Source: a virus | IMG/VR virus record: IMGVR_UViG_3300042090_000844 | Coordinates: 1-22,789 of that record | Reading direction: 5' to 3' (one strand) | Length of the DNA: 22,789 nt | The notes under the pieces: model-generated | What the model was told of the DNA's origin: nothing | Databases searched by the model: none | Seen by the model: the letters and a program-made list of their open reading frames with translations, nothing else | Shown: positions 1,099-19,170 of the stretch, piece after piece | How positions within the stretch are numbered: the stretch's first letter is position 1 | How the letters are laid out: every line of letters starts with the position of its first letter | Position numbers and translations under genes: made by a program

Positions 1099-1520
1099 GC
1101 GGGGGCCACCAGTAGCAGGGTCGGCGTGACGTCCACCACGCTGACAACCATCTTGAACGGACCCGCGGATGTCTGCACCTGCGCGGCAACCATGAGCACC
1201 CCCGCGATCGTGAGCGAGACGGAGACCGTGCACCGCTGCACGCGCTCATCCTTCTCGGCCTCGGCCCCGAGTTGCTGCTGCCATCGGTCGATGTCCGAGG
1301 GGGACAGGTCCGAGTTGACGGAGTCGGTGACGTTCCGTCCAAAGTTCGGGTCGTCGATGAGTCCGCCGCTGTTCGTCGTCCAGCGTCGGAGGATGGCTTC
1401 GGCAACGCACTGGAAGCCCGAGGCCCAGTAGGCGGGCATCGAGAGGCTCTGTCCGTTGGGCGTGCCCCAGCACGTGCCGAGGTTGAGCGGCGCGGGAGTA
1501 GGAGGAAGGGGGAAGCTCAC
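1095..1520 (-). CDS. Baseplate wedge protein, gp46 / GPW-gp25-like
   Basis: This 141-aa protein starts at a GTG (1520) that overlaps the stop of the upstream 595-aa gene as GTGA. The central segment GGLIDDPNFGRNVTDSVNSD, followed by a helix and by EKDERVQRCTVSVSL, matches the pattern of small baseplate wedge proteins (T4 gp25, P2 W, Mu gp46). These have an early aspartate/glycine turn, then a helix, then a DxRV-type strand. Wedge proteins join the sheath-initiating part of the baseplate to the J-like protein, which is the next gene. The N-terminus (about 30 residues, Pro- and Gly-rich) is longer than I expect and the C-terminus is a hydrophobic strand ending in APA. The larger open frame upstream in this phase only shadows the neighbouring gene. 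The call rests on pattern and position. Confidence 0.72.
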   Translation of the reverse strand: MSFPLPPTPAPLNLGTCWGTPNGQSLSMPAYWASGFQCVAEAILRRWTTNSGGLIDDPNFGRNVTDSVNSDLSPSDIDRWQQQLGAEAEKDERVQRCTVSVSLTIAGVLMVAAQVQTSAGPFKMVVSVVDVTPTLLLVAPA

Positions 1521-3304
1521 GCGGCCACCGGCATGAATGCGCCGAGCGCAAGCGCGCTCGCCTCCGATGTTGCGCCTAGCACGAGCGCAGAGCAAGCGCC
1601 TCCGGTGACGACGGAGAGCGCGGGACCCAGGTCGCTCCCCGGTCCCGACCACACGTACACGTCCACCTCTCCAGTCCCCAGCCCGAGCTGCGCGCCAATC
1701 TCCCCCGAGAGCTTTCCGATCACGGCGATCTGCGCGGCGATTCCTGCCTGCGCGCTCACGGTGAGGTTCGGGAGTTTGGCGGAGAGGTTCGCCTTCAGGT
1801 TGAGCAGGATCTTGGCCATGAACACAAGCATGAGCGGTGGGAAAGACGGCACGATCTGCGCGGAGAACTTCACGTTGAGCGCCGCGGCCTGCTTTTCGAG
1901 GTTGGCGAGCAGGTCCGCGAGGGCCTGGAACGATGCACCGAACGCTGCGCCGATCGTGGTGGAGCTCGCGACGAGTCCCGACACGGGAAAGCTCACCCCC
2001 GAGGCAAAGAGCGGCAGACCCGCGAGCGAGCCGCCGCCCATCACGACACTCCCGACGGCACCTGAGCCCGTGCCCTGCGCACTCCCGCCCGAGTACGTGC
2101 CGTAGCTCGCGACGGGGAGAGAAAACGCGGTGTCGTAGTAGAGGGCCACCGTCGTCGGCGCGAGCACCTTGCAGGAGAAGGGCCCCACCAGGTTCCCAAC
2201 AAGCGTGGCTCCGCCTGCGTAGACGCCCTCGCCGGTGGACGGGAGAGAGTACGCGGCGTCCTGGTAGAGTGCCACGTGGGTCGCGTCGATCGCCTGGCAG
2301 TACCACGAGCCGTTGAGGCCCGACGACGATGGCTCGGCACCCGAGATGGTGCACGAGTAGAGCCCGGTCGCGCTCGCGACCTGCAGAACGATCGGGGATG
2401 TCGCCGTGGCGCCCAGGACGGGCGTGGAGCCCGTGACGCCCGGAAAGGTCAGAGAGACCCCATCGCCGACGGGGACACCCAGAGCGTCCGGCAGCGTGGC
2501 GACGATCGGGGTCGTCGCGGAGAGCGAGACGAGTGGAGCCGAGTCCACGATCGAGACGGTCGGAGGCGACGCGTAGCCATCCCCCGCGCCGGTCACGTTG
2601 ACGGACGCGGCGCCGATGCCCGTCGGCGTGGAGCTCGACGGCGTGACCGTGACCGTTCCCGTCGCGGTCACGCCTCCTGGGGGCGCTGGGGAGAACGAGC
2701 ACGAGGCGAGCCCCTGGGTATACGTCTGCGGCGGTGGGCTGAGCGAGGACGGGATCGATGGGGTCGTCGGTGGCTGGGGCGGGAGCGGGGGCGGCTGGAG
2801 CATCGTGACGCTCTGCACGGTCCCGGGGCCGCTCGTGCCGGTCGACGTGGCCACGAGCACCACCGCGGTCACACTGGAGCTCGACGGAGTCCCGTCGGGC
2901 CACCCCGACGCGAGAGCCCCGGACACCGCAGCGCTGAGGCCCGTCGAGGCGCCCACATAGGCCAGGACGTCGAGGCTCGCACCGACGGTCGCGGCCACGA
3001 GCGCCTTGAGCGCCACGATGAGCGCCAGCACGATGCCGAGCTGGAGGTTGAGGCAGACCTGCAGGTTCGCGGTGACGTTCGGGATTGGGAACGTGAGCAC
3101 GTTCTGCCACATGACCGCGAGGCTCGCGAGAAGCGCGATCGAACCCGCGATCGAAGGGAACGAGAGCGACACGCCGAGCGATAGGGAGAGCGCGATGAGA
3201 CCGGAGAGTTGCAGCGCGAGGTCGAACGCGACGGCGAGATAGATCGCGAAGAGCGGCGCGCACAGCACCGAGATCGGGATCGTCGTCTTTGCCCCGAGGC
3301 TCAT
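1517..3304 (-). CDS. Unusual 595-aa hydrophobic tail/baseplate protein with internal duplication
   Basis: I do not recognise a named family. The ATG at 3304 overlaps the previous stop (ATGA); upstream in-frame starts would overlap the hub gene. Layout: long hydrophobic segments at about residues 11-65 and 85-115; a Pro/Ser-rich linker at about 155-215; beta-rich modules at about 255-410, including two tandem copies of a unit ending in YAGG or YSGG; then another hydrophobic helical region at about 460-595. Residues ~41-153 and ~476-579 look like diverged copies of one domain: both have a Pro-Asn-(Val/Leu)-Thr motif (75-78 and 512-515), then a hydrophobic helix, then a (L/V)DV strand (111-113 and 547-549), then a V/L-rich strand ending Ala-Thr-Ser. 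The gene occupies the slot of the Mu gp45 spike, between a gp44-like hub and the gp46-like wedge. A baseplate spike or membrane-contacting role is inference from position. Confidence 0.6.
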   Translation of the reverse strand: MSLGAKTTIPISVLCAPLFAIYLAVAFDLALQLSGLIALSLSLGVSLSFPSIAGSIALLASLAVMWQNVLTFPIPNVTANLQVCLNLQLGIVLALIVALKALVAATVGASLDVLAYVGASTGLSAAVSGALASGWPDGTPSSSSVTAVVLVATSTGTSGPGTVQSVTMLQPPPLPPQPPTTPSIPSSLSPPPQTYTQGLASCSFSPAPPGGVTATGTVTVTPSSSTPTGIGAASVNVTGAGDGYASPPTVSIVDSAPLVSLSATTPIVATLPDALGVPVGDGVSLTFPGVTGSTPVLGATATSPIVLQVASATGLYSCTISGAEPSSSGLNGSWYCQAIDATHVALYQDAAYSLPSTGEGVYAGGATLVGNLVGPFSCKVLAPTTVALYYDTAFSLPVASYGTYSGGSAQGTGSGAVGSVVMGGGSLAGLPLFASGVSFPVSGLVASSTTIGAAFGASFQALADLLANLEKQAAALNVKFSAQIVPSFPPLMLVFMAKILLNLKANLSAKLPNLTVSAQAGIAAQIAVIGKLSGEIGAQLGLGTGEVDVYVWSGPGSDLGPALSVVTGGACSALVLGATSEASALALGAFMPVAA

Positions 3305-4488
3305 CCGCCGATCCCCAGGAGCGAAGAGCCCGTCTGAATGGTTCCGATCCCCGGCGTTGTGCAGGTGAGGAGCCCGATGAACGGCTCTGTTGGGATCGGG
3401 AGCCCTTGCAGTCCAGAAATCTGCATCGCGGGCGGAAAGACGATCACCACCGTGTCCCCTACCCGCGCCGCGGCGGGTGCGCTCGACGACTGCGGGCAGA
3501 GCGTGACGGAGACGGGCCCCACGCTTGCGTCTGCCTCGGTCCACACGCACACGGGTCGCGCTGGGCTCCCGTTGATGAACTGCAGATGCGCGAGGCCTCC
3601 GCTTGGCGCGGTGTAGCTCGCGATCGAGGACGACAGGAGCGGAACGTTCTGAATCTCAGGCAGGCCGATCGTCGGGTCCGTCGGCGCGAGGTCCACGGTG
3701 GTCGGCGTCGGGTTGGAGATGCTGTACTCATAGCGGCCGTAGAACCTCGTCCCCGCCGTCTCGCTCTGCACGAAAACGCGAAGGGGGCCGACGAACCTGT
3801 CCGCGCTCGCGGGGTCGGTGAGCACCTGGAAACGGAACTTCCCGTCGGGGTCCCACTCGTACTCGACGCCGCCGGAAGTATACGCCTGGTCCAGGATCGG
3901 GTGCGAAAACGAGGTTCCTGGCATCCACGACGCGTAGTCCTCGGTGGCGATGGTGACGCGTCCGTGGTCGGGGCGCTGCTCGGTCGGGGTGAATGGCGTG
4001 TTGATGGTGGATGCCGGCCACGCCCGCGTCTGCGTCGTGCCAGTCGCGTCGATGTACCACGCGGGTATCCACCCGAACTGCACCGCCTGATCGAGCAGAA
4101 GGCTGGCGAGCCCGTCTCCCCGCGCGAACCCATTGCCGATGGTCGTCGGCGCTCCGGTCACATTGATCGTTTCGCCCACCGAGGTCGCGGCGTCCTGAAG
4201 CACCGTCGCGAGCGAGATGCCCCCGGCCGACCCGTACCCTTGCGGTGTCGTGTTCTTTCGCCACCCCGCCGCGCCCGCGACGATGCGCGCCTGCGTCTGC
4301 CCTCCGTACGCGCTCGAGCGGTAGACCGTCCCCTGCAGTGTCAGGTTGCCGATCACCACGGTGACCGCGCCCGAGAGAGCGTTGGCTACCTGGAGCGCGA
4401 CGTCGGCAGTCCATGGGCCCGTCGCGGGGATCATGAGGCGCCCCGACACGATCGGGAAACCCGCGACGGAGGAGAAGGGGCCGCTCAT
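3301..4488 (-). CDS. Tail hub/baseplate protein in the Mu gp44 (P) position
   Basis: This 395-aa, largely beta-strand protein starts at an ATG overlapping the preceding stop (ATGA). The N-terminal ~50 residues (SGRLMIPATGPWTADVAL and a following strand-rich stretch) look like a tail-hub first domain. The middle (about 90-150) has a region that could be the second hub domain, with ISLATVLQDAATSVGE and FGWIPAWYIDATG. The C-terminal third is an OB-like beta region containing ARVGDTVVIVFPP. Hub proteins of contractile tails close the tube at the baseplate and carry the spike. The assignment rests on gene order (tape measure, gp43-like, this gene, spike slot, gp46-like, J-like) and general fold impression rather than a decisive motif. 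It could also be a spike-hub fusion. Confidence 0.5.
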   Translation of the reverse strand: MSGPFSSVAGFPIVSGRLMIPATGPWTADVALQVANALSGAVTVVIGNLTLQGTVYRSSAYGGQTQARIVAGAAGWRKNTTPQGYGSAGGISLATVLQDAATSVGETINVTGAPTTIGNGFARGDGLASLLLDQAVQFGWIPAWYIDATGTTQTRAWPASTINTPFTPTEQRPDHGRVTIATEDYASWMPGTSFSHPILDQAYTSGGVEYEWDPDGKFRFQVLTDPASADRFVGPLRVFVQSETAGTRFYGRYEYSISNPTPTTVDLAPTDPTIGLPEIQNVPLLSSSIASYTAPSGGLAHLQFINGSPARPVCVWTEADASVGPVSVTLCPQSSSAPAAARVGDTVVIVFPPAMQISGLQGLPIPTEPFIGLLTCTTPGIGTIQTGSSLLGIGG

Positions 4489-5129
4489 GGTGTCGCCGTC
4501 GGGGAGAAGTTGTTGGTACCGCCACTCTGGTATCCGGCGATCTGATTCTGCAGCGCCGTGATCCGCGGGTCCTGGTTTGCGGGCTGGTTGCTGAACGTCG
4601 ATGCGTCATCGGCGTCGAGGCTGGTGGACGCGACCGTTTGCACGATGCTCGTCGCCGGCGGCGGGCTCCACTCGATGATCTGGATAGTGACGTGAAAGAC
4701 GCCCCCGGGCTTTTGCGGGACGGGCCCGGTGTAGTTCTCGACGACGACGACCGTCAGCCCGATCGACGCGTGCCCCGGGTAGTACCAGGAGAGCCCGTTT
4801 GCTTTCTGGTCCTCGCGCGAGATGCTGAGCACCGCGAACACGAACGCGTCCCACGCGGCAAAGTCGGCCGCGGTCACGAGTTGCATCGTGACCGTCCCCC
4901 CTACGGGCGGCTGGTCCTTGAGGATCAACTGTGCCCCCGCGGTTCCCTTTCCGGCCTGAATGTCCCACCCGGTCTGACGCTTGAATCCCTGCAGCCCGCC
5001 CGGGACGACGATGGTCCCTGGCAGCGAGACGCCGGATAGCTTCGGCGCAAGCCACGGGTTCTGCCCGACGTCGTAGCCGACGCTGACCGTAGTCAGCGGC
5101 GGGAGGAGCGTCGGCTGCGGAGAGCTCAC
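4485..5129 (-). CDS. Tail protein following the tape measure (Mu gp43/N or gpU position)
   Basis: The 214-aa product starts at an ATG overlapping the tape-measure stop (ATGA). It opens with a Pro-rich tail, then strands (GWDIQAGKGTAGAQLILKD, VTMQLVTAADFAAWDAF) and a short HVTIQIIEWSPPP strand, and ends in a low-complexity Asn/Ser/Gly-rich tail of about 55 residues. The alternating beta pattern suits a small tail-tube-related or baseplate adaptor protein, which is what normally follows the tape measure in Mu- and P2-like phages. No catalytic motif is visible. A structural tail role is likely; the precise subunit is not settled by the sequence. Confidence 0.5.
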   Translation of the reverse strand: MSSPQPTLLPPLTTVSVGYDVGQNPWLAPKLSGVSLPGTIVVPGGLQGFKRQTGWDIQAGKGTAGAQLILKDQPPVGGTVTMQLVTAADFAAWDAFVFAVLSISREDQKANGLSWYYPGHASIGLTVVVVENYTGPVPQKPGGVFHVTIQIIEWSPPPATSIVQTVASTSLDADDASTFSNQPANQDPRITALQNQIAGYQSGGTNNFSPTATP

Positions 5130-6799
5130 GCGCCCCTCGCAAGCTGTAGTCGCTCGATGGCGGCAGCAAAGCCGCTCATGCTGAGCTGCTGCGCGTCGGT
5201 CACTCCGGCTGCGGCGTGCACGTGGATCTCGATGTTGCCGTGCACGTGGATGCCGCCGTCCCCTCCCCCGACGGGAACGATCTGTTCTCCGGGCGCGACG
5301 GACGCAAAGAACTCGCCCGGCGCGGGGGCGTGGATGACCCCGCCGTCCGCGTGGGCCCGGTGTCGCTGGATCGTGGCCGTGCCGCTCGGGGCCTCGTTGC
5401 CAGGCGAGCCCGAAGCGCCCGACGATAGCTCGATGCCGCGCGGCGCGTCCGGTTCCGTCCGCTGCGGCGAGAGTCCGAGCGCATCCATCCCGCGCTTGAA
5501 CGCGTTGTCGTCGTCGATGCTGGCCGCGTGGAGCGGATTGACGCCGTCGAGCGTGCTCTTGACGCGAGAAAGCAAGTCCACCAGCTCTTTTGCGTCGTCG
5601 ATCACCTCGCGCACACCGTCGACCACGCCGCGAACGTCGACGTCAAAAAACTGCTGAATCGCGTGCTTGTGTTCAAGATAGAACACCTCCACCTCGAGGC
5701 CCGCCACCTCGGCTTCCGTCACGAGCGACGCGAGCGCCTTGATGGCCCCGTTGACTCCGGTCGTCACGCCGTCCTTGAGCCGATCGCCCGACGGCTGCCC
5801 TTCGTCTCCGAGATGGATCACGCTCTGGATCGCGTCGGTGAGCGGAGCCGTGTCAACGTCGTCGAAAAGGTGGCGAAGGGTCTCCTTCCCCTTGGCCCGC
5901 AGCGTGGCGATCTCGTCGCCCATCGCTTCGAGGGAGCCCTTTCCCTTCTCGATCAGGGTGTCGGACAGGGCGTTGCCGAACGCGACTGCGTCGACGGTGC
6001 CCGCCTTGAGGCCCGCGGCGAGCTGCTCCGTCGTCATCCCGATGGCGCTCGCCACCTCGGTGACGTTCAGCCCCGCCTCGTAGAGACCTTTGAGGCTCTT
6101 CTCGGCGAGCTTCAGTCCCTTGTGTTCCTCGATCGCGACGCGCACGCGCTCGGTGATCTTCTGGTAGGCCGCCGCCCCCTCGTCGCCCATGACGGCCTGC
6201 GCGGACGCCGTCGCAAGGATCTGGTGCCGCAGCTCGTCGAGATTGGTGATCCCCAGCGCCTCAAACTGCTTGGTCCACGTGGCAAGCTGCTCGCGCGTCT
6301 GGGGGAGCTGCGTCGAGAGCCTGTCCAGGAAGTCGAGCGTGCGGTCGCCGCTCCCCTCCCCCTGCGACCCGAGCGCCTCGAATGTGGCGACCAGGCGCCG
6401 GTTCGTCTCCGTGACCTCCAGCCCCGTCGTGACGGCGATCTCTCCGATGTGGTAGAGCGCGTCGGCCGACGCGACGGCCCCGACCGCGAGCACGGACAGG
6501 GCCGCTCCGGCCCCCGCGAACTCGGGACCGCCCGCGGCAACGGCGTCGTTGGCAGCCTTGGCGTCGAGCGCGAGACCGCGCTGTTCGAGGCGGAGCCCAG
6601 CGATGTCCTTCGCGCGAGCCCGGCCGATCGATCTCTCCGCCTCGCTGTCCCCGAGCTCGTGCTGCAGCTTCTGAAGGCGGAGCAGCTCACGCTCGTTCTC
6701 CCGCATGGTGGCGGTCAGGTCGCGGACCGCAGCGGACGCCTTGGTGGCGCCGGGCGTCACCTCGTCGATCAGCTGCACTCCGAGCCTGAGAACGTCCAC
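5126..6799 (-). CDS. Tail tape measure protein
   Basis: The 557-aa protein begins at a GTG (6799) with AAGGGG about eight bases upstream, and comes directly after the assembly chaperone genes. The N-terminus (about 20-75) is a charged, coiled-coil-like helix (ERELLRLQKLQHELGDSEAE). A hydrophobic Gly/Ala patch follows at about 90-115, then long helices to about 430. The C-terminus is Gly/Pro-rich and ends in a His-rich strand (GGIHVHGNIEIHVHAAAG) seen at the C-termini of many tape measure proteins. The family sets tail length and is threaded in the tube lumen. At roughly 1.5 angstrom per residue, 557 residues would give a tail of about 80 nm, which is an estimate only. The neighbours (chaperone upstream, hub genes downstream) strongly support the call. 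Confidence 0.85.
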   Translation of the reverse strand: MDVLRLGVQLIDEVTPGATKASAAVRDLTATMRENERELLRLQKLQHELGDSEAERSIGRARAKDIAGLRLEQRGLALDAKAANDAVAAGGPEFAGAGAALSVLAVGAVASADALYHIGEIAVTTGLEVTETNRRLVATFEALGSQGEGSGDRTLDFLDRLSTQLPQTREQLATWTKQFEALGITNLDELRHQILATASAQAVMGDEGAAAYQKITERVRVAIEEHKGLKLAEKSLKGLYEAGLNVTEVASAIGMTTEQLAAGLKAGTVDAVAFGNALSDTLIEKGKGSLEAMGDEIATLRAKGKETLRHLFDDVDTAPLTDAIQSVIHLGDEGQPSGDRLKDGVTTGVNGAIKALASLVTEAEVAGLEVEVFYLEHKHAIQQFFDVDVRGVVDGVREVIDDAKELVDLLSRVKSTLDGVNPLHAASIDDDNAFKRGMDALGLSPQRTEPDAPRGIELSSGASGSPGNEAPSGTATIQRHRAHADGGVIHAPAPGEFFASVAPGEQIVPVGGGDGGIHVHGNIEIHVHAAAGVTDAQQLSMSGFAAAIERLQLARGA

Positions 6800-6803
6800 C
6801 GTG

Positions 6804-7360
6804 TCACCCCTTCGAAAGAGAGCGAAGCGCGAGTCTGAGCCGAATCAGCGTCTCGGCTACGAGCTCGGCTGCGGCTGCGCCATCAGGACTGAGGGCGGGC
6901 CGATCAGCGTCGGTGCGCGCACCTCCTCCGAGGGCGCACCAGGAGAGCCACTCTCCGAGGCCTTGCGCATGCGGTCCAGGGCGGCACTCCTGATGCTCAC
7001 GCCTTTTCCCAGATCGAGCTCGATCTCGCTCTCGAACATCCCGGCGAGCGAGCGGAGCGCGGCGGTGAATTTGGGATGCGCGACGATGGCCGGACGCTCT
7101 CGGAGGAACGCTAGCCAGGACAGGCGCACGCTCTCGCCGGTGTCCGTCGGGACGTGTCCGTCGATGGCCACGATCGTCTCGTTGGCCAGGTTGTCGTCGC
7201 GCTGCGACTGCTCCGCGGTCCCCTCCTTGCGGCGCCACGCGGCGATCTCCTCGCGCGTCGGTCGGCGAAAAACGAACTCTCGTCCGTCGAACTGTACCAC
7301 GGCGATCTTTCCGTGCCTATCGCGGAGTTGCACCAGTTCCGCCTCGTTCAGCTGTCCCAT
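6804..7360 (-). CDS. Probable -1 frameshift product of the tail assembly chaperone gene (185 aa)
   Basis: In the chaperone gene the codons CTG GGA AAA contain a perfect X XXY YYZ heptamer (GGGAAAA, 7010-7004). After a -1 slip the reading frame stays open for 66 more codons and stops at 6804, five bases before the tape-measure start. The fusion would share the first 119 residues with the 167-aa product and carry a different C-terminus that includes EWLSWCALGGG and AAAAELVAETLIRLRLALRS. Tail chaperone genes of many phages (lambda G/GT, P2 E/E', Mu 41) make such paired products, and the same gene order is present here. The extension also fills the otherwise unusual 57-base gap before the tape measure. 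Codon use in the extension is less GC3-rich than in the zero frame, so a non-functional slip site is not excluded. Confidence 0.6.
6857..7360 (-). CDS. Tail assembly chaperone, zero-frame product (lambda gpG / Mu gp41 analogue)
   Basis: The 167-aa protein sits between tail tube and tape measure, the fixed place of tail assembly chaperones, which hold the tape measure while the tube polymerises. I chose the ATG at 7360, with GGTGG just upstream; a GTG at 7369 would add three residues. The N-terminus resembles tail chaperones, with a short beta segment (KIAVVQFDGREFVFRRPTREE) followed by helices (ERPAIVAHPKFTAALRSLAG). The C-terminus, Pro/Ser-rich and ending in QPQPSS, is probably disordered. 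The gene is preceded by a 77-base gap, unlike its coupled neighbours, so it has its own ribosome binding site. A slippery heptamer lies at codon 118-119. Confidence 0.75.
   Translation of the reverse strand: MGQLNEAELVQLRDRHGKIAVVQFDGREFVFRRPTREEIAAWRRKEGTAEQSQRDDNLANETIVAIDGHVPTDTGESVRLSWLAFLRERPAIVAHPKFTAALRSLAGMFESEIELDLGKGVSIRSAALDRMRKASESGSPGAPSEEVRAPTLIGPPSVLMAQPQPSS
7004..7010 (-). promoter_or_regulatory. -1 ribosomal slippery heptamer GGGAAAA
   Basis: Read on the minus strand the zero-frame codons are CTG GGA AAA GGC, so G GGA AAA has the correct phase for a tandem -1 slip. GGGAAA-type heptamers are the classical sites of lambda-like tail chaperone frameshifts. A 16-base perfect palindrome abuts the heptamer on its 5' side (7011-7026). 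I saw no convincing pseudoknot just downstream by eye. Confidence 0.65.
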
Positions 7361-7437
7361 CAGAGCCACCAGGGGTTAGAAGGTGGCCGCCAGGACGTGA
7401 CGGCGTGGAGGGTCGCTCCGGTGCCTCAGAGGATGCC

Positions 7438-7929
7438 TCAGATCGGCACGCCCTGCAACGGGTCGTTCGAGTCCTCGAGCCCGTTGAACTTGATCTTGGT
7501 GGGGTTGAACTCGATGGTGCGGGTGAGGGCCTTGTTTCCCTCCTGATCGTCCGCTTCCGTCGTGTCCATGGTGCAGTTGATGATCACGTCGGTGTAGGTC
7601 GGTAGGTTCACTCCGCCGTAGCTGACCATGGCCGTGAAGGGCTGGTCTCCGTAGCCCGCCCCGATCGCGACGAGCTTCTGCATCAGCACCGCCCACCAGT
7701 CGAGGTAGGCAGTGATGGAGAACTGGTACTTGTTCGTGCCCAGCGTCTTCGCGACGGCATCGACGTTGTTGCTCATCGCCATCTCGCGCGAGCGAGTACG
7801 CGAGCGCTTCACGGCCGTGAAGCCGCCGCTCATCTCGAACCCGGCCAGGTTGAGCGACGTGATGTGCCCGAAGGATCGGATCACTCCGTTGGTAACCGGG
7901 ATCTGTAGGGGGGTCACCTGAGCGCTCAT
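7438..7929 (-). CDS. Tail tube protein (Mu gpM-like)
   Basis: The 163-aa protein starts at an ATG overlapping the sheath stop (ATGA). Its size and place directly after the sheath are those of contractile-tail tube proteins. These form the inner tube of stacked hexamers through which DNA passes. The sequence suits the small beta-barrel tube fold: strands such as KYQFSITAYLDWWAVL, QPFTAMVSYGG and YTDVIINCTMDTTEADDQEG, and a C-terminal strand (LTRTIEFNPTKIKFNGLED) typical of the last strand pair. No membrane or catalytic motifs are seen. The stop lies in a short direct repeat (GCCTCAGA twice, 7423-7442), after which 77 bases pass before the next gene. Confidence 0.75.
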   Translation of the reverse strand: MSAQVTPLQIPVTNGVIRSFGHITSLNLAGFEMSGGFTAVKRSRTRSREMAMSNNVDAVAKTLGTNKYQFSITAYLDWWAVLMQKLVAIGAGYGDQPFTAMVSYGGVNLPTYTDVIINCTMDTTEADDQEGNKALTRTIEFNPTKIKFNGLEDSNDPLQGVPI

Positions 7930-9515
7930 TGCGCACCTCCGTAGGCGATGCTGATCGTTTCGGACACCGTGTTGACGTATCCGCGTGGCTGGACGGCGAC
8001 GGTGATGGGGATCGCGCCGGTAGCCTGCACGTTCGAGGTGACGATCGTCCCCGTCACGCTCGACACGGCCCCGACCGCCACGAGGCCGGCGTTGAGCGCC
8101 TGCTGCAGCCCCTGCTGTAGCTGCTGCTGATCGGCCGCGTTGAGGGTTCCGTTGGGCTGCAAGAGGAGGTCGTCGGACACCTCCTGGATGCCGAACGCGG
8201 CTGCGATGTCACATGCCGCGTCGAGCGCGTTACCGATGACGAGCTCGGTGAACTGGGAGCCGGCCGCGGAAAGGAGCGGCTCTCCGCCGTTGTTCCCGCT
8301 CGGCGCGGACCCGCCCTGGAAGAAGCCCTGGCCCTTGAGGGGAACGGTCCACGCGCTCGCGACGCGTCCCGCGGCGAGGCCGGGGGTCACGCGCTCGTCG
8401 TGGTAGACGAACCCATCCGTAGGGTCTGTCGCGGGGTTCACCAGGATTGCGGGCTCGGGGCCGGTGCCGTAGGGGCCGTCCTTCACGCGCCCGGCGCGCC
8501 GCTGGAGGGGGATGGTGGTGCGCTTTGCCGCGTGCGCCCACGCGAGCGGACGGCGGTACACCGGCTGACCGAACGCCGCATTCGCGTACGGGCTCGGGAT
8601 GTTGTAGTAGCCGCCGTCCGCGCAGACGCGAGGCGCCGTGGTCCCGGCGAGCGCGGTCGTCAGCGCGGAGATCCACGTGGCCTCTGTCTCGGTCGAGCCG
8701 CCCCACGTCGTCCCGCCACTGATGCCCGTCGTCCCGCCCTGATCGCGCAGTTCGACGATGCACCGATCGAACTGGAACGACGCGACTCCGGCTTGCACCG
8801 CCGTCTGAATCGAGCCGACGTCGCCCGACGCGCACGGCCCGACGACGTGCATCGAGCCGACGCCTGCGACGCCGTACTGCGAGGCCTGGAATGCCGCGAA
8901 CGCCGCCGTGAGGCCCGCATCATTCCAGAGCGGGGGCGTGGTGCCGAACTGCCACGTGTCGCCGACCGACATGGTCTGCGCGGACGTAAACGAGAGCCGC
9001 AGCCCCGTCCCGCCGACGGCCACGGTGTTCAGGGGAGCGCCGAGGTCGACCGTGGTGGCCGACCCGAGGCTGATCGGGTTGCCCCAGTTGCGCCCCGCGT
9101 CGCCGGACACAATGATCGACGGTCCCGGCGCGGTGCCGATCGTGCCTGGCACGACGCACTTGACCTTGACGTAGAACTGATCCCAGGCGCCGTAGGTCGA
9201 GTCGACCACGACCGTCATGGCCGCGTTCCCGACGTTCGAGAAGCCAGCAACGACTGCGGCGGCTGCGCCCTTCGTGACCACGGGCACGGACATCGCCACG
9301 CACACGTTGCCGGTCTTGCAGACGAGCCCACCCGACTCGACGAGCGGCCCGCCCGTGAACTGCGTCTGCAGCGAGACGGGGCTCGTGGTCGCGTACGGCT
9401 GATTGACCGTGCCGCCGATCGCGATCCCGCACTTGAACTGGACGTTCTGCGACGGGACCGAGAGCGCGGCGGACACGCCGTTGTCCTGCACCGTCACCTG
9501 AAGAATTGCGGTCAT
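7926..9515 (-). CDS. Tail sheath protein of a contractile tail (gpL-like)
   Basis: The 529-aa protein starts at an ATG overlapping the previous stop (ATGA). It is called a sheath from its size, its place before a small tube gene, and the C-terminal quarter, where sheath proteins have their conserved polymerisation domain. Here that includes DGFVYHDERVTPGLAAGR, a region with FTELVIGNALDAACDIAAAFG, a long Gln-rich helix (ADQQQLQQGLQQALNAGLVAVG), and a final strand stretch (AIPITVAVQPRGYVNTVSETI). The N-terminus is a beta-rich domain with several Gly/Val stretches. Sheath subunits wrap the tube and contract on infection, so the phage is a myovirus. The family resembles the DUF2586-type sheaths more than the Mu protein, as far as I can judge by eye. 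Confidence 0.75.
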   Translation of the reverse strand: MTAILQVTVQDNGVSAALSVPSQNVQFKCGIAIGGTVNQPYATTSPVSLQTQFTGGPLVESGGLVCKTGNVCVAMSVPVVTKGAAAAVVAGFSNVGNAAMTVVVDSTYGAWDQFYVKVKCVVPGTIGTAPGPSIIVSGDAGRNWGNPISLGSATTVDLGAPLNTVAVGGTGLRLSFTSAQTMSVGDTWQFGTTPPLWNDAGLTAAFAAFQASQYGVAGVGSMHVVGPCASGDVGSIQTAVQAGVASFQFDRCIVELRDQGGTTGISGGTTWGGSTETEATWISALTTALAGTTAPRVCADGGYYNIPSPYANAAFGQPVYRRPLAWAHAAKRTTIPLQRRAGRVKDGPYGTGPEPAILVNPATDPTDGFVYHDERVTPGLAAGRVASAWTVPLKGQGFFQGGSAPSGNNGGEPLLSAAGSQFTELVIGNALDAACDIAAAFGIQEVSDDLLLQPNGTLNAADQQQLQQGLQQALNAGLVAVGAVSSVTGTIVTSNVQATGAIPITVAVQPRGYVNTVSETISIAYGGAQ

Positions 9516-10399
9516 ACGACGGGCTCCATGGTGAACACGACGGGGTCAGTGGAGCCGGGATTGACGGGCTCGACGGTGAACTGCAGCGAGAGCGGGGACG
9601 GGACGAAGCTTGCGAGGGTCGGCCGGTCAACGGGCTGCTGGATCTCAACGATGCCGGCCCAATGCTGTCCCGCCTGCGTCTGCGAGCCGGCGCCGACAAC
9701 CTGCGACGGCCACCACTCCTTCAGGAGCTTGATGCCCGCGCCCTGCGCGTCGAAGAGCGTACCCCATAGTGCGTCTCGCAGGTTCGTGGTCGCATCGAAG
9801 TCTCCGAAGTCAGGGTCTGGAGGGGTCGCGCGGCCGTAGACGTGCACCTCGAACGTCGTGTGCGCGGTCGCAAGTCGCGGATTCTGCCGCTGCGCCTGCT
9901 GCTCGAGCGTGCCGCGTCCGTACGGGGAGGCGAACGTCATGTTCGCGCCCCCGCTGGCCTCGAGCCCCCACTCCCGACCGGCCATGGGCACGAATACGAC
10001 GCGCGGGCTCGCCACCGCGGGGGCGTTGTCGACGTGGCGCCTGCCGAGTCGGATTCCGAAGTCGGGGAACGCGACGGCGATCTGCCCCCCGCCGGTGTAC
10101 GCGTTGACGCCCACGACGGGCGTCACGATGCCCTGGGCGGACACCGAGTACAGCGCGAAGGTGTTGGGGTCGACGACCGTGAACACGAACAAGCCGTTGG
10201 CCTCGGGCATCCCGCCGACGCCTGAGGATACGCCGTGCACTGGCTGGCCCGGAGGTACGCCGTGAGATGGCGACGTCACGGTGACCGGGGTGGTCGTGGT
10301 CGCCCCGGTGATCGGGAACGGCGTGCCGAACGTCTGGCCCGCATTGATGAGCACCGACGTCAGGTTGAGGGACAACAGCGTTACGAGCGCGCCGATCAT
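9512..10399 (-). CDS. Probable tail terminator/neck protein carrying an FCCH-like beta module
   Basis: The 295-aa product starts at an ATG (10399) overlapping the stop of the gpG-like gene (ATGA); the longer in-frame extension upstream is a shadow. It lies immediately before the sheath, where tail terminators or neck proteins are found. The second half fits such a protein: a TTFEVHVYGRA strand, a helix LRDALWGTLFDAQGAGI, and a strand WAGIVEIQQPVDRP. The first half carries an extra beta module at about residues 33-105 containing SHGVPPGQPV, a FVFTVVDPNTFALY strand and a YTGGG turn. That pattern matches FCCH-like modules in phage tail proteins and recurs in two other genes here. The terminator role is inferred from order and shape only. 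Confidence 0.55.
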   Translation of the reverse strand: MIGALVTLLSLNLTSVLINAGQTFGTPFPITGATTTTPVTVTSPSHGVPPGQPVHGVSSGVGGMPEANGLFVFTVVDPNTFALYSVSAQGIVTPVVGVNAYTGGGQIAVAFPDFGIRLGRRHVDNAPAVASPRVVFVPMAGREWGLEASGGANMTFASPYGRGTLEQQAQRQNPRLATAHTTFEVHVYGRATPPDPDFGDFDATTNLRDALWGTLFDAQGAGIKLLKEWWPSQVVGAGSQTQAGQHWAGIVEIQQPVDRPTLASFVPSPLSLQFTVEPVNPGSTDPVVFTMEPVV

Positions 10400-10836
10400 G
10401 TGGCCCCCACAGCGCGAGCCTCGTGCGAGACCGCGGCGCCGATGGCGTCGCGCCACGAGCGCGGCATGTCTCGCGAGGGAAGGGTGGGGCGAGCGGGCCC
10501 ATCGCCCTGCGGCCCGCTCCACCCCGTCTGGTGAGGCGCTCCGGGGTGCGGGATGTAGATGGCCACGCCCGCGTACTGCGTCGGCGTGACCGTGCTCCCG
10601 AGGCGCATCGCACCCGTGTCGGTCAGCGGGGGGAAGTGGCGACCCTTCGCGATCGTGGCTTCCGCGAGCGGTTCCCACGGTTCGCCGTACGGGTCGTGTC
10701 CGCCCTCGTACTCCGCCTCGATCAGCGCCTCGAGCTCGAGAGCGACCGTCGCCGCCGCACGAGACGGGATGCGCGCAAGATCCTCGATGCGGTCGGCGAG
10801 ACGGCCCATGCCGCCGATGTCTCCACGCCACGTCAT
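10396..10836 (-). CDS. Phage virion morphogenesis protein (Mu gpG-like) / tail completion
   Basis: The 146-aa product starts at an ATG (10836) overlapping the stop of the 100-aa gene (ATGA). The order is a helical N-terminus (ADRIEDLARIPSRAAATVAL), a region with DPYGEPWEPLAEATIAKG, then a beta part (LTDTGAMRLGSTVTPTQYAG, VAIYIPHPGAPHQTGW) and a helix ending SWRDAIGAAVSHEA. This is the layout of Mu gpG / phage virion morphogenesis family proteins (PF05069-like), in which WEPLA, LTDTG and ARPTLPSRD-like stretches are characteristic. Members act at the head-tail neck or in tail completion. The match is by pattern recognition. Confidence 0.7.
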   Translation of the reverse strand: MTWRGDIGGMGRLADRIEDLARIPSRAAATVALELEALIEAEYEGGHDPYGEPWEPLAEATIAKGRHFPPLTDTGAMRLGSTVTPTQYAGVAIYIPHPGAPHQTGWSGPQGDGPARPTLPSRDMPRSWRDAIGAAVSHEARAVGAT

Positions 10837-18526: not shown

Positions 18527-18751
18527 TCACTTCTGGCACACCCAGTACCCGCCCCCGTCCGTGCCCGTCGGCAGAAACACGCACCCCACTCGGTCGGGTC
18601 GCGCGTCGCCGCAGTTGTCCACGAAGTCGCTCGCGTCGTAGTAGACGCATCCCCCCGCATCACGCGGTGGCGTGGACACGTCGGGCTCAGCGTCGATGGG
18701 CGCGGACGCCGACGAGCACGCGGCGAGCAGCAGGAGTAGCGCGGGCCTCAT
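18527..18751 (-). CDS. Small Cys-rich lipoprotein (74 aa)
   Basis: The ATG at 18751 overlaps the GroES-like gene stop (ATGA); the in-frame extension to 18880 is a shadow. The first 12 residues are a very short signal: an Arg at position 2, then a Leu-run and the lipobox Leu-Ala-Ala-Cys (9-12). After that come Ser/Ala/Pro/Asp-rich residues to about 34, then a compact C-terminal domain with four cysteines (35, 47, 57, 72) that could form two disulfides. It is probably lipidated and displayed in the host envelope. Phages carry such lipoproteins as superinfection-exclusion proteins (for example T5 Llp, similar size) or as outer-membrane spanins. A spanin usually lacks such Cys pairs and sits in a lysis cassette, which is not present here. 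Function is not settled. Confidence 0.7.
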   Translation of the reverse strand: MRPALLLLLAACSSASAPIDAEPDVSTPPRDAGGCVYYDASDFVDNCGDARPDRVGCVFLPTGTDGGGYWVCQK

Positions 18752-19170
18752 CGGCAGTCCGCCCCCGCCGCCAACCACGGCCTGCTCGTGTCGCCCTGCG
18801 CTTGCACGAGCTGACCGTCCTCGATCACCGCGTCGATCTCGCGCTGGGCCCGAACCACGCACACGCTGCCATCGGTCCACGTGAGCCGAGAGCCCTTCTC
18901 GGTGCTCTCGTAGTGAAACTGCACTACGTCGCCGACCTTGAACCCGTGCGCGATCTCGTGCCCCTGCGACGTGAGCACGGGCGGACCCATCGCGAGGACG
19001 CGGCCCCGGTGCGTCTTCTCGGAGTACTCACGGTACTCGCCGTCGCCGATGTGGACGTAAGGGTCGATGATGACGCTCGATGCGTGCTCGGCGATCGGAA
19101 GGATGACGACGCGGCCGCGCAGGCAATGCAGTTTGCCGCCCGCGCCCCACCAGGCTCCCGGTTCGCTCAT
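18748..19170 (-). CDS. GroES-like co-chaperonin (140 aa)
   Basis: The ATG at 19170 overlaps the glycosyltransferase stop (ATGA); the frame upstream of it is a shadow. Residues ~19-116 follow the GroES plan: strand GRVVILPIAEH (19-29), a long loop with SSVIIDP (31-37) standing where the mobile loop and its hydrophobic IVL tripeptide occur, then GRVLAMGPP (56-64), the VGDVVQF strand (79-85) and the final EIDAVIED (111-118). The loop between is longer than in bacterial GroES (about 20 extra residues). Phage co-chaperonins such as T4 gp31 replace GroES to let GroEL fold the large capsid protein. Here a similar role for the gpT-like capsid protein is plausible. The C-terminus adds a Gln/Ala/Trp tail of about 20 residues. 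Confidence 0.8.
   Translation of the reverse strand: MSEPGAWWGAGGKLHCLRGRVVILPIAEHASSVIIDPYVHIGDGEYREYSEKTHRGRVLAMGPPVLTSQGHEIAHGFKVGDVVQFHYESTEKGSRLTWTDGSVCVVRAQREIDAVIEDGQLVQAQGDTSRPWLAAGADCR

Follow-up and report, generated by a model that had tools for sequence, protein, structure and literature searches.

The window analysed here is the entire 22,789-base viral record of a contractile-tailed phage. Its tail genes include a GC-rich gene encoding a 595-aa protein, which we call P0001. This gene lies within the baseplate block, between the hub-spike and wedge genes, as would be expected of a virion structural protein of a contractile tail (Table 1). Its ATG (3304) shares the sequence ATGA with the stop codon of the hub-spike gene, and we take it as the natural start of P0001; with the end at 1517, the coordinates originally given were correct, on the minus strand. 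The protein contains no arginine, and its N-terminus is strongly hydrophobic. Elsewhere in the window, where the structural block begins, we also observed a short lipoprotein-like ORF (LLLLLAACSSASAPIDAEPDVS..., 18527-18880, minus strand), which is similar in style to lipoproteins of myxobacteria and could point to an outer membrane in the host.

Table 1 Features of the tail region and of the P0001 gene in the window.
Feature	Position	Strand	Basis or remark
Sheath	7926-9515	minus	27% identity to Meiothermus phage sheath genes
Tube	7438-7929	minus	named mainly by gene order
Chaperone-like gene	between tube and tape measure	minus	named mainly by gene order
Tape measure	5126-6799	minus	
214-aa gene	between tape measure and hub gene	minus	
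Hub-spike protein, 395 aa, hub and OB-type spike fused	3301-4488	minus	relatives 37-54% identical, some with two genes
Spike part of hub protein, residues 250-395	3304-3741	minus	Pfam Phage_base_V and Phage_Mu_Gp45 matches among homologues; profile similarity to VgrG OB region
PAAR-like tip ARVGD...GTIQTGSS with inserted FPP...PFxG segment	3316-3468	minus	50% identical to L022 spike tip
P0001, 595 aa	1517-3304	minus	translation; full-length homologues 39-42% identical
Copy 1 of the domain, residues 1-165	2810-3304	minus	very hydrophobic, GRAVY ~1.6 over residues 10-110
Copy 1, two-residue alternating (beta-like) stretch, residues 16-106	2987-3259	minus	beta z +7 to +8.7, helical signal absent
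Copy 1, beta-alpha-beta end with GWPDGTP, residues 110-152	2849-2977	minus	AlphaFold pLDDT ~85
Pro-rich linker, residues ~160-200	2705-2827	minus	sequence
Inserted beta modules, residues ~200-425	2030-2707	minus	weak PHROG tail/baseplate matches in homologues
Copy 2 of the domain, residues 426-595	1520-2029	minus	less hydrophobic; nearer to single-copy relative
Copy 2, two-residue alternating stretch, residues 450-540	1685-1957	minus	beta z +7, helix z ~+1
Copy 2, beta-alpha-beta end, residues 546-578	1571-1669	minus	pLDDT 67-85 by 10-residue block
gp25-like baseplate wedge protein, gene after P0001	1095-1520	minus	phrog_975 baseplate protein, E 2e-5
Baseplate J gene	after gp25-like wedge gene	minus	

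P0001 had been placed at the position of the central spike, as a possible spike substitute. We found that the spike lies in the preceding gene. The C-terminal 146 residues of the 395-aa protein align with stand-alone genes in the phages L015, L018, L019 and L041 and in Meiothermus and Thermus phages. Within the resulting set of ten spike segments, Phage_base_V was matched by five (best E 0.0088) and Phage_Mu_Gp45 by three (best E 0.0078), and among the PHROGs the Riverbug member matched one PAAR family (E 8.6e-4). Searched against the PDB, the profile of the set aligned with several VgrG spikes and All3320, around VgrG residues 420-460, at E values of 0.13-0.26 that are marginal but consistent. 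Each of these matches is weak singly; because they combine with the gene order, we read the 395-aa protein as a hub fused to an OB-type spike with a PAAR-like tip. With a separate spike in that gene, P0001 is an extra gene that comes after the spike, and the idea that P0001 is itself the spike was rejected; the gp45-type OB spike whose presence elsewhere would speak against a spike substitute sits in the 395-aa gene. P0001 has no OB-fold domain recognisable by Pfam or PHROG profiles up to E 1, nor any sequence match to PAAR tip proteins in Pfam, PHROG or PDB profiles. The apex PAAR-like motif is absent from it as well, and ARVGD...GxIxxGS is found in the hub-spike gene instead.

The arrangement of this region varies among the phages compared. 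Hub and spike are fused in the window and in L002, L010, L011, L013, L014 and L033, and each has its own gene in L015, L018 and L019 (at ~6800-8130). In L017 (8259-9734) and L018 (8340-9794), both of which lack the P0001 family, a gene of ~485-490 aa with a lipoprotein signal (LVACSG, VIAACSG) stands between the spike and the gp25-like gene. A gene of ~80 aa with a common ARGWFNK motif follows the spike in L015 (~7917-8160) and L018 (~8094-8322), with no duplicated protein, and an unrelated Ala-rich gene of ~160 aa fills the slot in L043 (6155-6640). The lipoprotein-like and Ala-rich genes may be taken as signs that varied accessories occupy the slot after the spike.

The P0001 family proved rare: scanning 2.9 million viral contigs repeatedly, using either the hub gene followed by reading of the next gene or the protein family itself, yielded seven distinct viral relatives of P0001, and a final scan with the tandem forms added no further member. 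The gene always lies directly after the hub-spike gene and is followed by a recognisable gp25-like gene in every relative except L022. The full architecture also occurs in L002, L010, L011 and L022 (39-42% identity to P0001), the L002 homologue being 39% identical across nearly its whole length, while L019 (340 aa) and L033 (349 aa) carry bare tandem copies and L013 (166 aa) a single copy. From this series of single copy, tandem, and tandem with insert, we propose an order of evolution: the sequences suggest that a single copy was duplicated in tandem and that a Pro-rich linker and beta modules were then inserted between the copies.

All family members are metagenomic, and no cultured phage with the gene is known. 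Searches of 50,697 phage genomes by tblastn with P0001, the L002 homologue, the tandem forms and the single-copy form returned no match. P0001 and its relatives were assigned to no family in Pfam, PHROGs or NCBIfam, P0001 itself giving zero Pfam or PHROG matches up to E 1, and a PDB sequence profile search gave nothing credible for P0001. With Foldseek, the whole model of P0001 gave only weak matches in the PDB and the single-domain model none in a viral library, and both models are of low confidence, so that neither result is evidence of a new fold. Among 400 genomes of the phylum to which a Chloroflexi MAG with a sheath relative belongs, no match was found either, a result of little weight. 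The remote homology search proposed with the original prediction thus recovered no known family or fold, and the P0001 domain fits no described family, fold or structure.

A duplicated hydrophobic domain had been noticed by eye at residues ~41-153 and ~476-579. The two halves of P0001 gave a Smith-Waterman score of 79 against a shuffle mean of 48.6, a score reached in 5 of 2000 shuffles. With a stricter null, which preserves both local composition and odd/even alternation, 11 of 400 shuffles reached it. The relatives gave a much clearer result under this strict null, with z values of 10.4 for the halves of L019, 12.0 for L033 and 8.7 for L010, and none of 400 shuffles reaching any of these scores. 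Alignment by hhalign of the N-copies with the C-copies of the window protein and its L002 homologue gave an E value of 1.3e-9, and the window N-copy found the L002 C-copy in a cross-BLAST at 8.6e-8. On these alignments the internal duplication is real, marginal in P0001 alone and secure through its relatives. The duplication therefore stands as predicted and its extents do not, the units spanning residues ~1-165 and 426-595. That the likeness of the halves reflects hydrophobic composition alone was rejected, since the relatives clearly beat the composition/alternation null and P0001 alone does so marginally. Both copies in the relatives share a W-P/H-D-G-T motif, which is gone from copy 2 of the window protein.

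Each copy consists of a long alternating stretch, divided in copy 1 into long segments by Pro turns, followed by a small beta-alpha-beta end. In the AlphaFold model the order of elements in this end is identical in the two copies, and the two ends are the only parts of the copies predicted with confidence. Between the copies, the Pro-rich linker and the beta modules that had been described are both present. The modules comprise a GxGYxSxPTV-type module and others distantly like the E1 FCCH fold, and they are missing from the single-copy (L013) and bare tandem (L019, L033) relatives. Foldseek matched the whole P0001 model best to UBA6, an E1 enzyme (prob 0.89, E 0.26); this match probably arises through the inserted modules (2030-2707) and would suit their FCCH-like character. 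The gpJ-like protein of L002 and a window ORF at ~9512-10400 also seem to contain stretches resembling these modules.

The hydrophobic segment of each copy had been described as a long helix. We found instead that its pattern has a period of two residues and not of 3.6. Across all 15 domain copies, hydrophobic residues alternate with small or polar ones at z +5 to +16 (180 degrees), and no copy gives a signal at the helical periodicity of 100 degrees. This alternation is kept among copies down to ~17% identity and shifts phase at Pro turns ~25 residues apart. In a scan of 94 proteins (the eight family members and 86 controls), ranks 1-9 were taken by the eight family members together with T4 gp5, which peaks in its C-terminal needle (z 8.7-12.8; +8.7 for P0001 vs +9.1 for T4 gp5), followed by T4 gp37, Ag43, OmpF, the hub-spike of the window itself and T4 gp34. 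The helical membrane proteins LacY, NuoL, NuoN and ClcA reached only 1.5-2.2, and the best protein of this kind, NuoA, 4.1. The period of two is not the eight-residue repeat of the T4 needle, an identity that was rejected on the weak or negative autocorrelation of P0001 at lag 8 (+0.18) and lag 16 (-0.06), against +0.44 and +0.45 for T4 gp5. Because the alternation has a period of two and is not accompanied by helical periodicity, the hydrophobic region probably forms long beta strands rather than helix. Two observations run counter to this reading: AlphaFold places three helices per copy in the alternating region, linked by Pro turns, at low confidence (pLDDT mostly <50 in the full-length model and ~43-69 in the single-domain model), and much of the alternating sequence is Ala, Ser and Asn, residues that form beta structure poorly.

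Hydrophobicity is the other distinctive property of the domain. Over residues 10-110, GRAVY values of all copies range from 0.6 to 1.7. In the five long members, copy 1 is at ~1.6 over 100 residues, with four to five 19-residue windows above the hydropathy threshold, and copy 2 ~0.8-1.0; so strongly hydrophobic a copy 1 is confined to these long forms, the single and tandem forms being milder. Beta-rich controls gave -0.1 to -0.7, with the T4 needle segment at -0.25 and that of OmpF at -0.68. Strong alternation together with high hydrophobicity would thus fit a membrane-inserting beta structure, and we infer from these profiles that copy 1 may act on the host membrane. The membrane-active look given to the protein in the original prediction accordingly survives as a live possibility, copy 1 of the long forms lying far above any beta-rich control.

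The preceding gene offers a possible attachment site for P0001. In the window and all seven relatives, the PAAR-like tip carries an insertion of the form FPP...PFxG...TSP, which varies somewhat among them. It is present in 8/8 phages with the P0001 family directly downstream vs 0/11 without it; these 11 (L005, L006, L014, L015, L016, L017, L018, L041, L043, L044 and L045) came from the same searches, and the P0001 domain is absent from all of them. A split this clean would arise by chance once in 75,582 cases if the phages were independent, a figure that is overstated, as most of the 19 are related. The sole clearly independent case in this table is L022. Its hub is of a different type (phrog_177) and the body of its spike is unrelated; neither of these, nor its tape measure or next gene, has a relative in L002 or in the window DNA. 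However, the last ~46 residues of its spike are 73% identical to those of L002 and 50% to those of the window, and its P0001-family protein is 60% and 40% identical, respectively. The spike tip and the P0001 family are all that L022 has in common with L002 and the window. The tip and the protein appear to have been exchanged as a unit, and physical contact is therefore the simplest explanation; on this linkage, P0001 probably docks on the PAAR-like spike tip through the hydrophobic tip insertion.

Taking these results together, our best explanation is that P0001 is a tip-mounted accessory of the needle of a Mu-like contractile tail, with copy 1 specialised for the membrane. As a whole we give this model about an even chance, docking on the tip being likelier than that and the membrane function less likely. 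P0001 would be an accessory component of the central needle and not the spike itself, mounted on the PAAR-like tip of the hub-spike and, as the spike is, most likely trimeric. Its domain would consist of long alternating, probably beta, segments and then the small beta-alpha-beta unit. Copy 2 would retain the ancestral, more polar character and role, and copy 1 would have turned extremely hydrophobic, with the Pro linker and beta modules inserted between the two. On sheath contraction, the needle would carry P0001 into the envelope, where copy 1 would insert into or destabilise a membrane and so open a path for the tail tube and DNA. Of the hybrid of baseplate cap and membrane-disrupting protein that had been suggested, this model keeps a separate membrane-directed protein on the spike tip and drops a spike that has itself turned membrane-active. 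A bolder version, which we consider unlikely, is that the duplicated domain of a trimeric tip protein unfolds on contraction into a membrane-spanning beta barrel that serves as the phage's own DNA conduit, with tip and pore protein swapped as one module.

Much of the same evidence can be read mechanically. As an intertwined trimer of beta structure, P0001 might make the spike tip longer or sharper, in the form of a fibre or cap with the alternating hydrophobic residues buried in its core and no membrane insertion. The tie between the family and the spike tip agrees with such an extension, as does an alternation that matches the T4 gp5 beta-helix needle and exceeds the T4 gp37 and gp34 fibres. 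However, P0001 is far more hydrophobic than every needle or fibre tested and lacks the eight-residue repeat of the T4 gp5 type, which makes a purely structural role rather unlikely in our estimate. The hydropathy windows of the first copies and the AlphaFold helices would instead suit a protein that spans the membrane with helices formed by its hydrophobic segments and that may serve as a channel or pilot. The periodicity argues against it: no copy shows the helical period, the alternation is conserved among very divergent copies, and LacY, NuoL/M/N/H, ClcA and FhuB have no comparable alternation. We judge a helical membrane protein quite unlikely.

Two further roles would set the membrane aside. 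The beta modules, with their weak PHROG matches, resemble those of tail fibres, and two phages carry a lipoprotein-like gene in the same slot, so accessories there vary; P0001 might accordingly be a tip-borne adhesin that recognises the host surface, or a delivered effector, with the modules as its functional part. But the modules are absent in L013, L019 and L033, hence not the core function, and no enzymatic or toxin family was matched, so we hold this role to be improbable. P0001 could also be imagined as an assembly factor or chaperone of the spike that stays outside the virion, given that type VI spike tips often require adjacent chaperones for hydrophobic segments, as reported for Eag proteins (PMC12881460). 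Yet P0001 itself has the hydrophobic, low-charge character of the partner, contrary to that of a chaperone, and beta modules such as it carries typify virion proteins; we consider such a function highly improbable.

Comparison with known systems places the tip-mounted accessory near several of them and identical to none. Type VI effectors whose N-terminal transmembrane segments are bound by Eag chaperones resemble P0001, as modelled here, in having a very hydrophobic N-terminal region at the spike tip that is to be delivered into an envelope, whereas P0001 is probably beta, duplicated and phage-borne, and no effector domain was found in it. With the PAAR tip proteins (T4 gp5.4 and type VI PAAR) and their cargo, P0001 shares the character of a separate protein, presumably on the spike apex; it lacks the PAAR motif and any toxin mark and would rather be the partner of a PAAR-like tip. 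The central spikes Mu gp45 and P2 gpV occupy a neighbouring gene slot and, as far as the position of P0001 can be deduced, the same needle region, but P0001 is not homologous to them and gives no OB, beta-helix or PAAR signal. The alternation of the T4 gp5 C-terminal beta-helix needle is of comparable strength, but P0001 has no octapeptide repeat, is far more hydrophobic and ends in a beta-alpha-beta unit. In phage phi29, hydrophobic parts of gp9 at the tail end enter the membrane. P0001 has no sequence relation to gp9 (tblastn, 50,697 phage records), the phi29 tail is short and non-contractile, and the loop region of gp9 has a GRAVY of just +0.16.

The passage of contractile-phage DNA across the inner membrane is poorly understood. 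According to a 2025 cryo-EM paper on Mu, evidence is lacking that myophages pierce the inner membrane with their distal tail or make a transient hole there with it, T4 being the sole proposed exception (PMC11915804). P0001 would be a concrete candidate for this step. If our explanation is true, phage spike tips, like type VI tips, would be swappable docking platforms for accessory proteins.
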